Assembly: GCA_016200045.1 (NCBI GenBank)
Contig: JACQFN010000002.1
Span: 124,001-188,000, forward strand
Direction of reading: 5' to 3'
Length of the DNA stretch: 64,000 nt
Source of the DNA: Nitrososphaerota archaeon
GTDB taxonomy: Archaea > Thermoproteota > Nitrososphaeria > Nitrososphaerales > Gagatemarchaeaceae
This document shows, piece after piece, positions 30,797 to 35,556 of the stretch; the first letter of the stretch is position 1; the number at the start of each line of letters is the position of its first letter. The translations under genes and the position numbers were made by a program. The notes under the pieces were generated by a model. That model was not told the origin of the DNA. It saw only the letters and a list, made by a program, of their open reading frames with translations, and ran no database searches.

Positions 30797-30979
30797 TCAG
30801 TAGAATGCGGCCGTCACCATGAGGACCATGGCCAACACGATCAGGGTGGTCGATATCGTCGCACTTATCCCCACGGACTTGATCTCCTTCCCGAACTCAG
30901 GGGTCAGCTCGTTCCCCAATGCCTGGAGTATTTTCAGCGCCTTGGTGAAATGGCGTGATACGACCAGCGCGTCGCTCAT
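30797..30979 (-). CDS. Small single-pass membrane protein
   Basis: A 60-residue protein with an amphipathic N-terminal half (RHFTKALKILQALGNELTPE) and one C-terminal membrane segment (ISATISTTLIVLAMVLMVTA). The start is ATG 30979, 25 bases after the cupin stop, so it is probably in the same transcript. It has no recognised family; it could be a small regulator or subunit of a membrane complex. Confidence 0.55.
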   Translation of the reverse strand: MSDALVVSRHFTKALKILQALGNELTPEFGKEIKSVGISATISTTLIVLAMVLMVTAAFY

Positions 30980-31004: not shown

Positions 31005-31400
31005 TTAACCGTCAGAAGGGCCGTTCACGTTGACGACGGCCGGGCCAGAGCCGACGAGCAGGCTCACGACCACGGCTTCGTTGGCTGAACTGTTCACGTC
31101 TCTGTGGACCAGGCCCACCGGGATTCGAAAGAAATCTCCCGGCGAGATGACGGACACCTTCGAGCCTCCCTTTCCGAACTCAAGACGGAGCTCCCCCGAT
31201 AGGAGGTACCCATAGAGTTCGCGCGACCCGTGGTGATGCCAGACCGACACGTTTCCCGAGGCTATGTTGGACTGCGAAAAGATGGCCTGTTGAGTCTCGA
31301 AGGCAATGTGCCTTTGGATACCGGGGGAAGCAGCCCCCGCCCTTAGGCCGTTGCCTCTTACGACCTCTATCTCCAGGTGCCGGTCGTTCCCAGGCTTCAT
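31005..31400 (-). CDS. Cupin-domain protein
   Basis: A 131-residue single-domain cupin. The metal motif region is VSVWHHHGSRELYGYLLSGE and the second motif is SPGDFFRIPVGLVHRDVNSS, with His and Glu ligands typical of the family. The reaction or ligand is unknown. ATG 31400 overlaps the stop of the 45-codon gene upstream (ATGA). It sits in the minus-strand block with the archaeosortase. Confidence 0.8.
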   Translation of the reverse strand: MKPGNDRHLEIEVVRGNGLRAGAASPGIQRHIAFETQQAIFSQSNIASGNVSVWHHHGSRELYGYLLSGELRLEFGKGGSKVSVISPGDFFRIPVGLVHRDVNSSANEAVVVSLLVGSGPAVVNVNGPSDG

Positions 31401-31534
31401 GTGCCCACCTCGCTTACGCCCTCGGCGACAACGAATCCGGACCCCACGGCCGACTCAAACATCCCTGTTAAGACAGTCATCGTCTCCATGCACAGCTCAA
31501 GAAGGGGCGTGTCCGACGCGGGCGGCAATGTCAT
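31397..31534 (-). CDS. Small protein (45 residues) in a chain of ATGA overlaps
   Basis: ATG 31534 overlaps the stop of the 31531-32445 gene and its own stop overlaps the cupin ATG, both as ATGA. This perfect two-sided coupling is the main argument that it is real. The protein (LPPASDTPLLELCMETMTVL and on) is mildly hydrophobic and has no recognised family. Upstream extension of the frame overlaps the preceding gene and is not needed. Confidence 0.45.
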   Translation of the reverse strand: MTLPPASDTPLLELCMETMTVLTGMFESAVGSGFVVAEGVSEVGT

Positions 31535-32445
31535 CTCTCGTCTATCCCCACCACTGCGTGGAGGGCGTTGACGGGGCTCCTGCAATAGCATACCACCTTT
31601 CCAAGGCCATAGATGTGGGTGTAGTAGGCCAGAGTCGCGTTCCCTGAGATTCGCCACACCCTGACTATCGAGGTACCCGTGAAATTGAGCAAGGCATTGA
31701 ACTCTGCCCCGCTGTCTCTGAACGTCTCATTCCCGGCTGAAAGGGGGTAGTAGGAGCTCCCCACCCAGTTCTCGTTTTGGGTTTCAAAGGGCCTTGCTTG
31801 GCTCTTGTAGGCGGCCGTTCCATTGAAGGCCCACCCGTGCCCCGCCACAAAGGTCTCTACCCCCGAAGAGTAGTTAACGAGTACCTCAAGTTCATCGCCG
31901 TACATCAGGTAGAGTTCTCCGCCGCTGGCGACGAACTGCTTGAACTGGGTGTACTCTCTTGCGGTGACGTACTCCTCGTGCAGGACGAAGACCTTCTCGA
32001 AGCGCCTGGTTCCGCTGGCGAACAGGGCTCCGCCGTCTACCTGCGGGTCGGTGACCACTACAGCGTTCGAATAGTTGGCCAAGACTTGGGCGTAAAGGTT
32101 AAAGTCGGTTCCCCAGCCTGCGACCGAGCCGTCGGCGAATGGGATTCTCAGCTCCAGCCAGGTCAGGTCTTGAAGAATTATCGCACTGGAACTCGCGTAC
32201 TTTGCGTAGAAGGTGTAGAACCCACCATTCGCGCTGATGGACTCTCGGTACGCGGTCGAAGTGAAGGTGGGCTGGACCACGGCGACCGCACCCCTGACTT
32301 CTTCGCTTCCAGTCGATACCGCGGAAGTTACCGCGTTACCCAGCTGATTCGTCGATCCATAGGCTGCGAAGGTGGCTATTATGAGGACCACCCCGATGAC
32401 CACGGCTGAGAACAGTCCGTCGACTGTCTGGGAGCCCGGTTTCAT
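31531..32445 (-). CDS. Membrane-anchored extracytoplasmic protein
   Basis: A 304-residue protein with one N-terminal membrane anchor (LFSAVVIGVVLIIATFAAYG) and a large outer part with many Asn-x-Ser/Thr sites. The outer part alternates beta strands and helices (NAVVVTDPQVDGGALFASGT, FKQFVASGGELYLMYGDELE), reminiscent of a flavodoxin- or GATase-like fold as in some surface or archaellum-linked proteins, but no family is certain. It lies directly downstream of the archaeosortase gene and upstream of two coupled small genes. Confidence 0.7.
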   Translation of the reverse strand: MKPGSQTVDGLFSAVVIGVVLIIATFAAYGSTNQLGNAVTSAVSTGSEEVRGAVAVVQPTFTSTAYRESISANGGFYTFYAKYASSSAIILQDLTWLELRIPFADGSVAGWGTDFNLYAQVLANYSNAVVVTDPQVDGGALFASGTRRFEKVFVLHEEYVTAREYTQFKQFVASGGELYLMYGDELEVLVNYSSGVETFVAGHGWAFNGTAAYKSQARPFETQNENWVGSSYYPLSAGNETFRDSGAEFNALLNFTGTSIVRVWRISGNATLAYYTHIYGLGKVVCYCRSPVNALHAVVGIDER

Positions 32446-32487
32446 TTGATCGTGTTCTCCATCGTCGGCGCGTTGAAGAAGGGCATG

Positions 32488-33399
32488 CTAGATCGGGGTA
32501 TTGCCACCGAATTTCGTGGACTTTCGCCCATTTGGAACCCGCCCTCCCATGTTCGAGTAGACGACCAGCGCTGCCATGTAGAACCCCAGGAATAGAGCAT
32601 ACCCGACCCAGTTGTGGATCCCCCAGAACGCCTCGACTCCGCTGGAATAACCGACCCAGATGAGGATCGCAATCCTCGCCGAGTTCAAGAGAGTGAGCAC
32701 GGCGGTGCCGGCGACGGCGAGCATGAGTGTGGATTTGATTTCCTTCCTCGTGTCGAAGTGCATCAGAGCGAGGAGGCCCAGAAACGTGGTGACCGAGATG
32801 ACGCTCGAACACCCCGGGGTCACTGTGGCCGCAACCGTCTCACCGGTCTTCGAAACGAGGGCGAATTCCGTCCCTTGCCACACTACGGGGACGCCCGTGA
32901 GAGAGACGAACTGGGCCGAAAGGTAGGCCGAGAGGGAAGCCAGGGGCTCCCCGAAGGCCCACTGGATGGCCGCAGGTGCGGCGACTCCGGCAGAGTAGAT
33001 CAACCCGTACGGCAAGATGAAGCGCTTCGCCTGGGGGATAAGGACCAGAGAAGACGAGTAGAACGTCAGAACGATCGCCACCCCGGACAGGACCAGAGAC
33101 TGGCCCGCGGGCTCCCTCAGGGCGAGCAGCCCCGCGAGAGTGAGGGCCCCTAGGAGCCTGACCTTCGCCTCGGCAGAGAGGGGAACATCCTCGGCGAGGA
33201 TGTCGCGGAGGTCATCCCAGCGAAGGAGGAAGAGCACGGTAAGCAGGGCTGCGAATGGTACCGCGGGGAAGATGCTCCCGAATGCGTCGTCGAGCGACTC
33301 GCTCAGGAGGGCTGGGAAGTTGTAGGCCGTGAAGAGCGAGAGGGTCGTCGCGGCCGCGACCCAAGATACAAACCTGATCCGCGCCCCGTGCTCGACCAA
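32488..33399 (-). CDS. Archaeosortase/exosortase-family transpeptidase
   Basis: A 303-residue multi-pass membrane protein with about eight segments. The three family catalytic positions are visible: Cys in VTPGCSSVISVTTFLG, Arg in LLNSARIAILIWVGY and His in WGIHNWVGYALFLG. Such enzymes cut C-terminal PEF-CTERM-type sorting signals and attach the protein to lipid in the archaeal membrane. The gene for a protein with a PEF-type C-terminus lies at 34299-35525 on the same strand, a natural substrate. The start near 33399 is approximate. Confidence 0.88.
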   Translation of the reverse strand: MVEHGARIRFVSWVAAATTLSLFTAYNFPALLSESLDDAFGSIFPAVPFAALLTVLFLLRWDDLRDILAEDVPLSAEAKVRLLGALTLAGLLALREPAGQSLVLSGVAIVLTFYSSSLVLIPQAKRFILPYGLIYSAGVAAPAAIQWAFGEPLASLSAYLSAQFVSLTGVPVVWQGTEFALVSKTGETVAATVTPGCSSVISVTTFLGLLALMHFDTRKEIKSTLMLAVAGTAVLTLLNSARIAILIWVGYSSGVEAFWGIHNWVGYALFLGFYMAALVVYSNMGGRVPNGRKSTKFGGNTPI

Positions 33400-33437
33400 T
33401 CTCTCGGCCTCCCGCCGGGCCTGGATGGATTAGAGCT

Positions 33438-34196
33438 TTACCCGAATACGACGAGCCTGTGGTGCTCAGCCGCCGAGTAGTTCCTGACACCCGGACCGTA
33501 GTGAGGGGGGAGCGGGGTCTGCCACTCTGAATACGTCTTGGCGTAGTAAAGGAGCATCACTGCCTTCGCGTCGATGTACGCTGTCGCGTTTGCCGCCGTC
33601 GCATACCACTGCGCCTCAGTCAGCGTGTAGGCCGTCCGCCGAGGGTTGGGGAAGCAGGCATCGGTATCGCAGCCCCCGGCATAGGTCAGCGCGAAGTACG
33701 TGGCTCCCGCCAAGGGTTGAATGACGAGCAGGACGCAGGGCGCGCCCTTGGACAGAGGGGGCTGGTCCTGGTATGCGTAGAGGACGGGGCAGACAGGCCC
33801 GTCAAACCGGGAGATTGATTCAGCCATCAAAGCCTGGACCGACGCGTTGTTCAGACCGTAGTCGTCCAGGAAGACCCCCGTTACGCCCTGCGCCGAGAGG
33901 ATCCAAGATGCCTGCGCAGAGAGGTTTCCTCCCTCGGTCGGGGGAATCATTATGGCCCACCTCTCTGCGCAGCCCTCCGGAGCGGACCGACCACCCAGCA
34001 CTCCCTGAACGGAGAACGCGACTGTGCCGTTGGTCTGGGTACACTGTCTGCCCCAGGCGATGTCGGGCCCCCGAAGCGTTACCCCAGAGCCCGGGTTCCC
34101 TGGGTGGGTCAGCAAAGCCAATGAGGCTATCGACACCAGAGCGATGACTCCGACTGCCGCCAGCGCGAACCTGAATTCGTTCGTCAGGGCCCTCAC
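33438..34196 (-). CDS. Secreted protein of unknown function next to archaeosortase
   Basis: A 252-residue protein. An N-terminal hydrophobic segment (FALAAVGVIALVSIASLALL) acts as signal or anchor; the rest is outside, with several cysteines (two near residues 52 and 76, more around 136-185) likely in disulfides. The stretch QGVTGVFLDDYGLNNASVQA looks like the end of a beta strand with two acidic residues, as in TIM-barrel glycosidases, but that is only a hint. A TATA-like CATAAGAG lies near 34230-34238. It is immediately upstream of the archaeosortase gene. Confidence 0.65.
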   Translation of the reverse strand: MRALTNEFRFALAAVGVIALVSIASLALLTHPGNPGSGVTLRGPDIAWGRQCTQTNGTVAFSVQGVLGGRSAPEGCAERWAIMIPPTEGGNLSAQASWILSAQGVTGVFLDDYGLNNASVQALMAESISRFDGPVCPVLYAYQDQPPLSKGAPCVLLVIQPLAGATYFALTYAGGCDTDACFPNPRRTAYTLTEAQWYATAANATAYIDAKAVMLLYYAKTYSEWQTPLPPHYGPGVRNYSAAEHHRLVVFG

Positions 34197-34298
34197 TGAG
34201 TATCGGTTCCGCGATGCACTCTCCTGCTCTTATGTCCTATGACGAGCAGAACAGGTCCTGCCAAATCAGAATGAAGCTGCCAGGCCCCGAATAGCTGG

Positions 34299-35525
34299 CT
34301 ATGTGGGAGTGGGAATGGAAGGACCTTGCGCGCCCTGCCGACGACGGACGACCAAGTAGGACATGACCACGACTATCGTCAACCCAGCGATCGCCACTGC
34401 CTGCAGGGGGAATTCGGGGATGCCGCCACCTCCCCCACTTGAGGTGGGAGTCGAGCTGCTCGAACTTGATCCTCCTGACGTGCTCGCCCCTGACGAAGAA
34501 CTACTTGAGGGAGACGATGACGAGGTCGTGGAAGTAGAAGAGCCCTGGATTATGGACACGGTGTTATCTATCCTGTTCGAGACGTACACATCTCCGTTGA
34601 GGGGGTCGTACATTATCGCGTTGGGGCTCGTCCCGACAGTGATGTTGTCAATCACTTGGTTGTTCGAGCCGTCGATCACTGAGACCGTGCCTGAAGCGCT
34701 ATTTGCCACGTAGACAAACCCGTTTGTCGGGTTCACGGCAACTGCCACGGGGGAGAAGCCTACGTTTGTAATGTTCACCGCTGCGAGCAGGTTGCTTCCC
34801 AACACCGAGACGGTGTTGTCAATTGAGTTTGCCACGTAGAACTTGCCAGTTACCGGGTTGAAGTCCATTCCCAACGGGCCGTTACCGACGGTGATTTCTC
34901 GCGACAGCATCAACGAACTGTTGATGACAGAAATGGAATTCCCGACGGAGTTCACAACGTACGCGGTACTCGTAGCGTTGTTGACCAGAACCGCGACCGG
35001 AGCTATTCCAACCGTCACATTCCCTACCACAGAGTGGTTTGGCGCCAAAATCGTAACGGTGTTGTCGCCGTTATTCGCGACGTAGACGTTGCCAGTGGTA
35101 GCATCAACCCCTACCGCGTACGGGGAAACCCCGACCGTGACGTTCTCGGTCACATGATTGGAGCTGTCAACGACCGAAACGGTGTTTTCTCCGCTGTTCG
35201 CAACGTAGACGTTTCCGTCGACCGGGCTGTACGCCGCGCCTAGGGGAAGGTATCCCACCGAGAAGTTTCCGGCCAATTGATTGTTCGACCCGTTGATCAT
35301 CGTGACTTCGTTTCCTCCGTTATCAATCACATAGATGATTCCGGTCGTCGGATTAAGGGCGAAACTCGACGGGGTGAAGCCCACCTGAAGGGTGTTGACT
35401 ACGACGGAGGAAGCTGACGCCGACCCCGAGAAGGCTACAGCGATGGCCACTGCCATTACTCCCAGGACCAAGACAACCGAGGCCGTCCGCCCAATCCCAC
35501 GGCCGACTCGGGCATTTGTCTGCAT
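34299..35525 (-). CDS. YVTN beta-propeller surface protein with PEF-CTERM-like sorting signal
   Basis: A 408-residue secreted protein. A signal peptide (VLVLGVMAVAIAVAFSGSAS) precedes eight or so YVTN-type repeats of about 42 residues (NVYVANNGDNTVTILAPN, FYVANSIDNTVSVLGSN), giving a beta-propeller. A Ser/Thr-rich stalk follows, and the C-terminus has GIPEFPLQAVAIAGLTIV, a hydrophobic segment and RRRQG. That is the layout of archaeosortase substrates (PEF motif, membrane helix, basic end). ATG 35525 lies 27 nt from a TATA box. The archaeosortase gene is about 0.9 kb downstream. Confidence 0.87.
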   Translation of the reverse strand: MQTNARVGRGIGRTASVVLVLGVMAVAIAVAFSGSASASSVVVNTLQVGFTPSSFALNPTTGIIYVIDNGGNEVTMINGSNNQLAGNFSVGYLPLGAAYSPVDGNVYVANSGENTVSVVDSSNHVTENVTVGVSPYAVGVDATTGNVYVANNGDNTVTILAPNHSVVGNVTVGIAPVAVLVNNATSTAYVVNSVGNSISVINSSLMLSREITVGNGPLGMDFNPVTGKFYVANSIDNTVSVLGSNLLAAVNITNVGFSPVAVAVNPTNGFVYVANSASGTVSVIDGSNNQVIDNITVGTSPNAIMYDPLNGDVYVSNRIDNTVSIIQGSSTSTTSSSSPSSSSSSGASTSGGSSSSSSTPTSSGGGGGIPEFPLQAVAIAGLTIVVVMSYLVVRRRQGAQGPSIPTPT

Positions 35526-35547: not shown

Positions 35548-35556
35548 GTATAAAAA
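35548..35556 (-). promoter_or_regulatory. TATA box of the YVTN/PEF protein gene
   Basis: TTTTTATAC on the minus strand is centred 27 nt upstream of ATG 35525, giving a leaderless mRNA. Confidence 0.6.

Follow-up and report, generated by a model that had tools for sequence, protein, structure and literature searches.

A predicted archaeosortase and its probable PEF-type substrate nearby in a Gagatemarchaeaceae archaeon

We analyzed a window of 64,000 nucleotides from a Nitrososphaerota archaeon of the Gagatemarchaeaceae (GenBank: JACQFN010000002.1, positions 124,001 to 188,000). A locus in this window very probably encodes a lineage-specific archaeosortase together with one of its substrates, an exported beta-propeller whose C-terminal tail would be cut and which would then be tethered outside the cell, and a nearby cupin and a 45-aa ORF very probably do not belong to the system. 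The family of the enzyme, its invariant residues, the tail, the adjacency of the two genes in relatives and their co-occurrence across genomes support this reading.

Results

The sortase belongs to the exosortase/archaeosortase superfamily but to none of the named groups

The genes of the locus are transcribed from the minus strand in the order propeller, 252-aa protein, sortase, 304-aa protein, 45-aa ORF, cupin, and 60-aa membrane protein (30797-30979). Beyond the last lie genes for a 255-aa multi-pass protein, a pantoate kinase, an M24 peptidase (on the opposite strand), and then SMC.

The sortase ORF (32488..33399, minus strand, 303 aa) starts with TTG, has GGAGG upstream, and encodes a strongly hydrophobic protein. 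This protein matched the exosortase/archaeosortase superfamily model PF09721 with 68.3 bits (cut-off 25.7) and passed the generic model TIGR04178 with 47.9 bits (cut-off 23). Cys197, Arg242 and His262 are invariant across 21 aligned orthologs, and thus the expected catalytic Cys, Arg and His/Arg are all present. These results confirm the initial annotation of an archaeosortase with Cys, Arg and His motifs. None of the named archaeosortase models of NCBIfam passed, the best being ArtC (TIGR03762; 38 bits, cut-off 100); ArtE (21.6 against 95), ArtF (18.2 against 150) and ArtD (17 against 125) all stayed below their cut-offs. No other sortase turned up in the genome of 1.54 Mb, and no related solved structure was found.

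Fragments aside, orthologs share 46-61% identity within the genus. They come from MAGs named Thaumarchaeota or Nitrososphaerales, including SubAcS15-57, which has been assigned to Ca. Subgagatemarchaeum in the Gagatemarchaeaceae, group I.1c of acid soils (PMC10640624). The word 'sortase' is absent from the main text of that paper, and our literature search found no published description of a sortase in the family. A second, divergent sortase (30-36% identity) was seen at loci L053 and L055-L061 (relatives G115, G103, G072, G066, G025, G124, G145 and G059). Beside it in four loci (L053, L057, L060 and L061) a neighbour carries a different tail, P[LE]FPxG followed by a helix and a basic end, and the two may represent a further enzyme/tail pair within this family.

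The propeller carries a predicted sorting tail that is shared by other exported proteins

The predicted substrate is an exported NHL/YVTN-type beta-propeller of 408 aa (34299..35525, minus strand; PF01436, TIGR02276), the C-terminal end of which reads ...SSGGGGGIPEFPLQAVAIAGLTIVVVMSYLVVRRRQ... Its 31-residue sorting tail (34335..34427, minus strand) consists of GGIPEFPLQ, a helix and SYLVVRRRQ, and the tail profile A5 finds it in its own genome with E = 5.5e-16. All the features first described for this protein, GIPEFPLQ, a membrane helix and RRR, are present, and the sortase and the propeller, said to lie on the same strand within 3 kb, do share the minus strand and together span 3.04 kb. A box (TTTTTATA; 35549..35556, minus strand) lies ~27 bases ahead of the propeller start; we take it to be TATA-like by the archaeal consensus, and its position suggests that the propeller transcript may be leaderless. 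Thirteen related propellers elsewhere have the same tail.

Genome-wide counts were based on DNA pattern searches and tail-profile searches. The [ILV]PEFP DNA pattern matched four times in the whole genome, and because all four matches are C-terminal tails of exported proteins, the tail goes beyond chance. Besides the window propeller, these proteins are an LCAT/PGAP1-like lipase on contig C7 and, on C10 and C19, two proteins without an assigned function. The four tails are near-identical and align without gaps over 31 residues: GG[IV]PEFP[FYL]Q, a membrane helix, Tyr, and RR. An alignment of 57 tails of this type read across relatives was also free of gaps. The P and the F of PxFP are present in 57/57 and Gly at -1 in 56/57; the Glu of the motif occurs in 54/57, with Ala or Val in the other three, Tyr at +21 in 52/57, and Arg or Lys at +25 in 55/57. 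The variants IPAFP, IPVFP and VPVFP were seen in substrates directly upstream of the sortase (L034, L035, L149 and L095). One genome, G085, has both IPAFP and IPEFP, and the Glu therefore seems not to be strictly required.

When five of the tails were compared with the CTERM sorting-domain models of NCBIfam, none reached a cut-off (the best was GVDTG_CTERM, 15.4 against 29 bits) and four of the five had no match to any CTERM model. A Pfam scan of 53 tailed substrates revealed about twelve propellers, five thermopsins and three cupredoxins, along with NosD/beta-helix proteins, solute-binding proteins and an enzyme of the beta-lactamase fold. An extracellular thermopsin has been reported for the Gagatemarchaeaceae (PMC10640624).

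The tailed gene and the sortase gene remain adjacent in relatives

Of 23 ortholog loci, 16 have the tail encoded at the end of the gene immediately upstream of the sortase, with a stop codon positioned from 43 bases ahead of the start of the sortase match to 2 bases past it. The upstream genes mostly encode either propellers or proteins of a separate 210-aa family. In G052 the sortase has a convergent neighbour with the tail, and two further named MAGs add two cases of a sortase beside a tailed gene. Flanking genes vary between groups of sortase loci; therefore the pair persists while its surroundings change. If ~1600 genes are assumed, of which 3 to 9 encode a tail, a tailed gene beside the sortase is not due to chance, although the paired loci are related by descent. 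At five loci (L031, L036, L037, L040 and L045) there is no tailed gene directly upstream of the sortase, and the Trm112-like gene of the paired loci is kept, suggesting that the adjacent substrate was lost.

In the window the pair is separated by a gene for a secreted or anchored 252-aa protein with a conserved DD motif (33438..34196, minus strand), which the initial annotation had omitted. It was found in 3 of 46 family genomes, its own included, and had no match in Pfam. A fold search with a low-confidence model from four sequences (pLDDT 65) gave no significant match. A TIM-barrel-like glycosidase is a possible but unsupported assignment for the protein, and its gene is probably a local insertion into the propeller/sortase pair.

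The tail occurs together with the orthologous sortase

We ran profile A5, which was built from the tails of the very genomes searched, on 151 genomes of Nitrososphaerales at E <= 1e-5, and found the tail in 29 of them. It was present in 26/26 genomes with an orthologous sortase (contig-end fragments included) and in 3/125 without; the E-value limit and the identity that defined 'orthologous' had both been chosen after the data were seen. Within the family, 24 sortase genomes had the tail and none lacked it, and of the genomes without the sortase three had the tail and six did not (p = 7.6e-5, or p = 0.0013 if the divergent enzyme of G115 is counted). The three tail-bearing family MAGs in which no orthologous sortase was found are incomplete (64-88%). 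Co-occurrence with the sortase within the family was significant for the tail profile but not for the plain DNA motif (p = 0.31). The concordance partly reflects shared descent.

Among sampled relatives outside the family, A5 matched only three genomes, all from one other family, and one of these matches was borderline. A near-threshold match (G064:C13:68045-68134, E = 1.1e-5) lies in a 2374-aa open frame in another family of the order. When 300 genomes of the phylum were sampled, the tail was absent from the other 299; this sample seemingly holds few or no other family members and informs on the wider distribution only. The conserved adjacency and the concordance of tail and enzyme support the initial proposal that archaeosortase and PEF-type protein form a functional pair.

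The cupin and the 45-aa ORF do not follow the sortase

The 45-aa ORF (31397..31534, minus strand) has an ATGA overlap on each side and a weak coding score, and the cupin (31005..31400, minus strand; PF07883) is a single-domain protein with both metal-binding motifs. The two 4-base overlaps that had been described as joining the 304-aa, 45-aa and cupin genes are present. No relatives of the 45-aa protein were found in 46 family genomes, and none of 37 sortase loci gave a tblastn match to the cupin or to the 45-aa, 60-aa or 252-aa protein. Six other family genomes have orthologs of the cupin (44-58%), none found near a sortase, and the presence of the cupin did not track that of the sortase (p = 1.0). 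In G010, a single contig, the cupin lies ~530 kb from the sortase and 1.2 kb from a multi-pass (8TM) protein, followed by pantoate kinase, M24 peptidase and SMC, a neighbourhood that matches the downstream side of the window. The cupin therefore looks like part of the pantoate-kinase/SMC block, and its ATGA overlap like a local arrangement. Thus the gene order proposed as a check is conserved for the tailed gene and the sortase and not for the cupin and the 45-aa gene, and the co-occurrence of these two with archaeosortases failed to appear. We judged both to lie outside the system and do not retain them as accessory factors.

The 304-aa protein (31531..32445, minus strand) is anchored at its N-terminus. 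Its AlphaFold model (pLDDT 77) has an amidotransferase-like fold that matches part of dimethylformamidase, of the C-terminal type, and an acylase, and a weak PF20254 match agrees with the dimethylformamidase-like fold. The family is widespread and secreted, occurring in 36/151 genomes regardless of the sortase (p = 0.8), and for this reason we set aside the idea that the protein is an accessory of the sortase, although two loose linkages exist. The only tblastn match of the protein among the 37 sortase loci was in G124, 2 kb from a paralogous sortase. In G010 a homolog lies 15 kb from the sortase, next to the dpp-type transporter genes that also adjoin the 304-aa gene in the window, and this weakly suggests an old neighbourhood shared with the sortase. 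Homologs at L106 (G118), L110 (G115) and L119 (G106) carry C-terminal anchors, either PPAFPY, a helix and RR, or an S/T linker, a helix and a basic end, and some members of the family may therefore be sortase substrates. Membership of the 304-aa protein in the sortase system is borderline. We also considered whether its ORF is frameshifted into the 45-aa ORF, and rejected this since, by eye, the 45-aa sequence is unlike the C-termini of the homologs.

Discussion

We propose the following steps, in which cleavage, an acyl-enzyme and lipid transfer are modelled on ArtA of Haloferax, and the membrane topology of the sortase and its acceptor are presumed. The exported proteins carry a Ser/Thr/Gly-rich linker, GG[IV]PEFP[FYL]Q, a predicted membrane helix of ~18 residues and an Arg-Arg stop. 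Once a protein is exported, its tail would halt in the membrane, where the sortase would recognise the PxFP motif, and Cys197, with Arg242 and His262, would attack the chain at or near it. The helix would be removed, and the C-terminus created by the cut would be transferred to an acceptor in the membrane, so that the protein stays attached on the outside of the cell. A single enzyme would handle four substrates in this genome: the propeller, the LCAT-like lipase and the two uncharacterised proteins. In Haloferax, cleavage by ArtA is coupled to lipid attachment and needs homologs of PssA and PssD, and archaetidylethanolamine is the proposed acceptor (PMC7157517). The archaetidylserine decarboxylase PssD (PF02666) was found in 0/46 family genomes by a search that was positive in H. 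volcanii and M. acetivorans, which led us to propose cleavage at PxFP with transfer to a different acceptor. The acceptor may thus differ from that of ArtA, and a PssD-type decarboxylase probably does not make it. Only tentatively, and at somewhat less than even likelihood, do we suggest that the lineage-specific archaeosortase anchors acid-active enzymes at the cell surface and that its acceptor is another amine lipid, a glycolipid or a component of the S-layer.

The main rival explanation is that the sortase merely cleaves its substrates and releases them into the medium without lipid transfer, as the same result for PssD and the secreted-type hydrolases such as thermopsin among the substrates might lead one to think. 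We consider this unlikely, because ArtA, the characterised relative, joins cleavage to the attachment of a lipid (PMC7157517), the acceptor could be some other amine lipid, and the solute-binding and cupredoxin substrates make most sense if they are retained. It is far less probable still that the tail stays in place as an ordinary stop-transfer anchor and the sortase acts on something else. A helix followed by RR is indeed a generic anchor, but such an anchor has no need of a fixed GG[IV]PEFP, an invariant spacing from the P to the RR, or the Tyr, and the tail both tracks one enzyme in 26/26 genomes and adjoins it.

The remaining alternative concerns the extent of the locus: the 252-aa, 304-aa, 45-aa and cupin genes might form one surface-attachment operon with the sortase, the small protein and the cupin being accessory. 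The genes do lie on the same strand, separated by 38 and 42 bases or joined by ATGA overlaps, 304-aa homologs lie near sortases in G124 and G010, and some of these homologs have C-terminal anchors. Nevertheless, the other 23 ortholog sortases have no such genes beside them, co-occurrence is lacking, the 45-aa ORF is an orphan and the cupin is found elsewhere, and we regard a common operon as very improbable. A sortase with its substrate is the strongly supported reading of the locus.

The pair resembles ArtA and the PGF-CTERM proteins of Haloferax volcanii (PMC7157517) in its Cys-based membrane enzyme, its tripartite tail of motif, helix and basic end, and its use of a single enzyme for many substrates; it differs in having GG[IV]PEFP[FYL]Q instead of PGF, and the PssD-type decarboxylase required in Haloferax was not found. 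Likewise, the PEP-CTERM/EpsH exosortase systems (PMC1569441) share the superfamily (PF09721) and the logic of phylogenetic profiles, but they are bacterial, are tied to exopolysaccharide loci, and use a different motif. The PEF of the motif is also found in the PEF-CTERM signal of methanogens, which is associated with archaeosortase C (TIGR03762), but the window sortase scored far below the cut-off of that model. PEFG-CTERM proteins occur in ammonia-oxidising Thaumarchaeota. They have the phylum and the PEF core in common with the tail described here, in which PEFP followed by [FYL]Q takes the place of PEFG; the name PEFG-CTERM is used in PMC6593220.

Our results define a sorting signal and an enzyme subfamily that current NCBIfam models miss, and the apparent absence of PssD makes the question of the archaeosortase acceptor open to comparative testing. 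The hosts are uncultured Thaumarchaeota of acid soils, the cell surface of which is little known. In these organisms the exported thermopsins, lipase, cupredoxins, solute-binding proteins and propellers are likely to be tethered to the cell.
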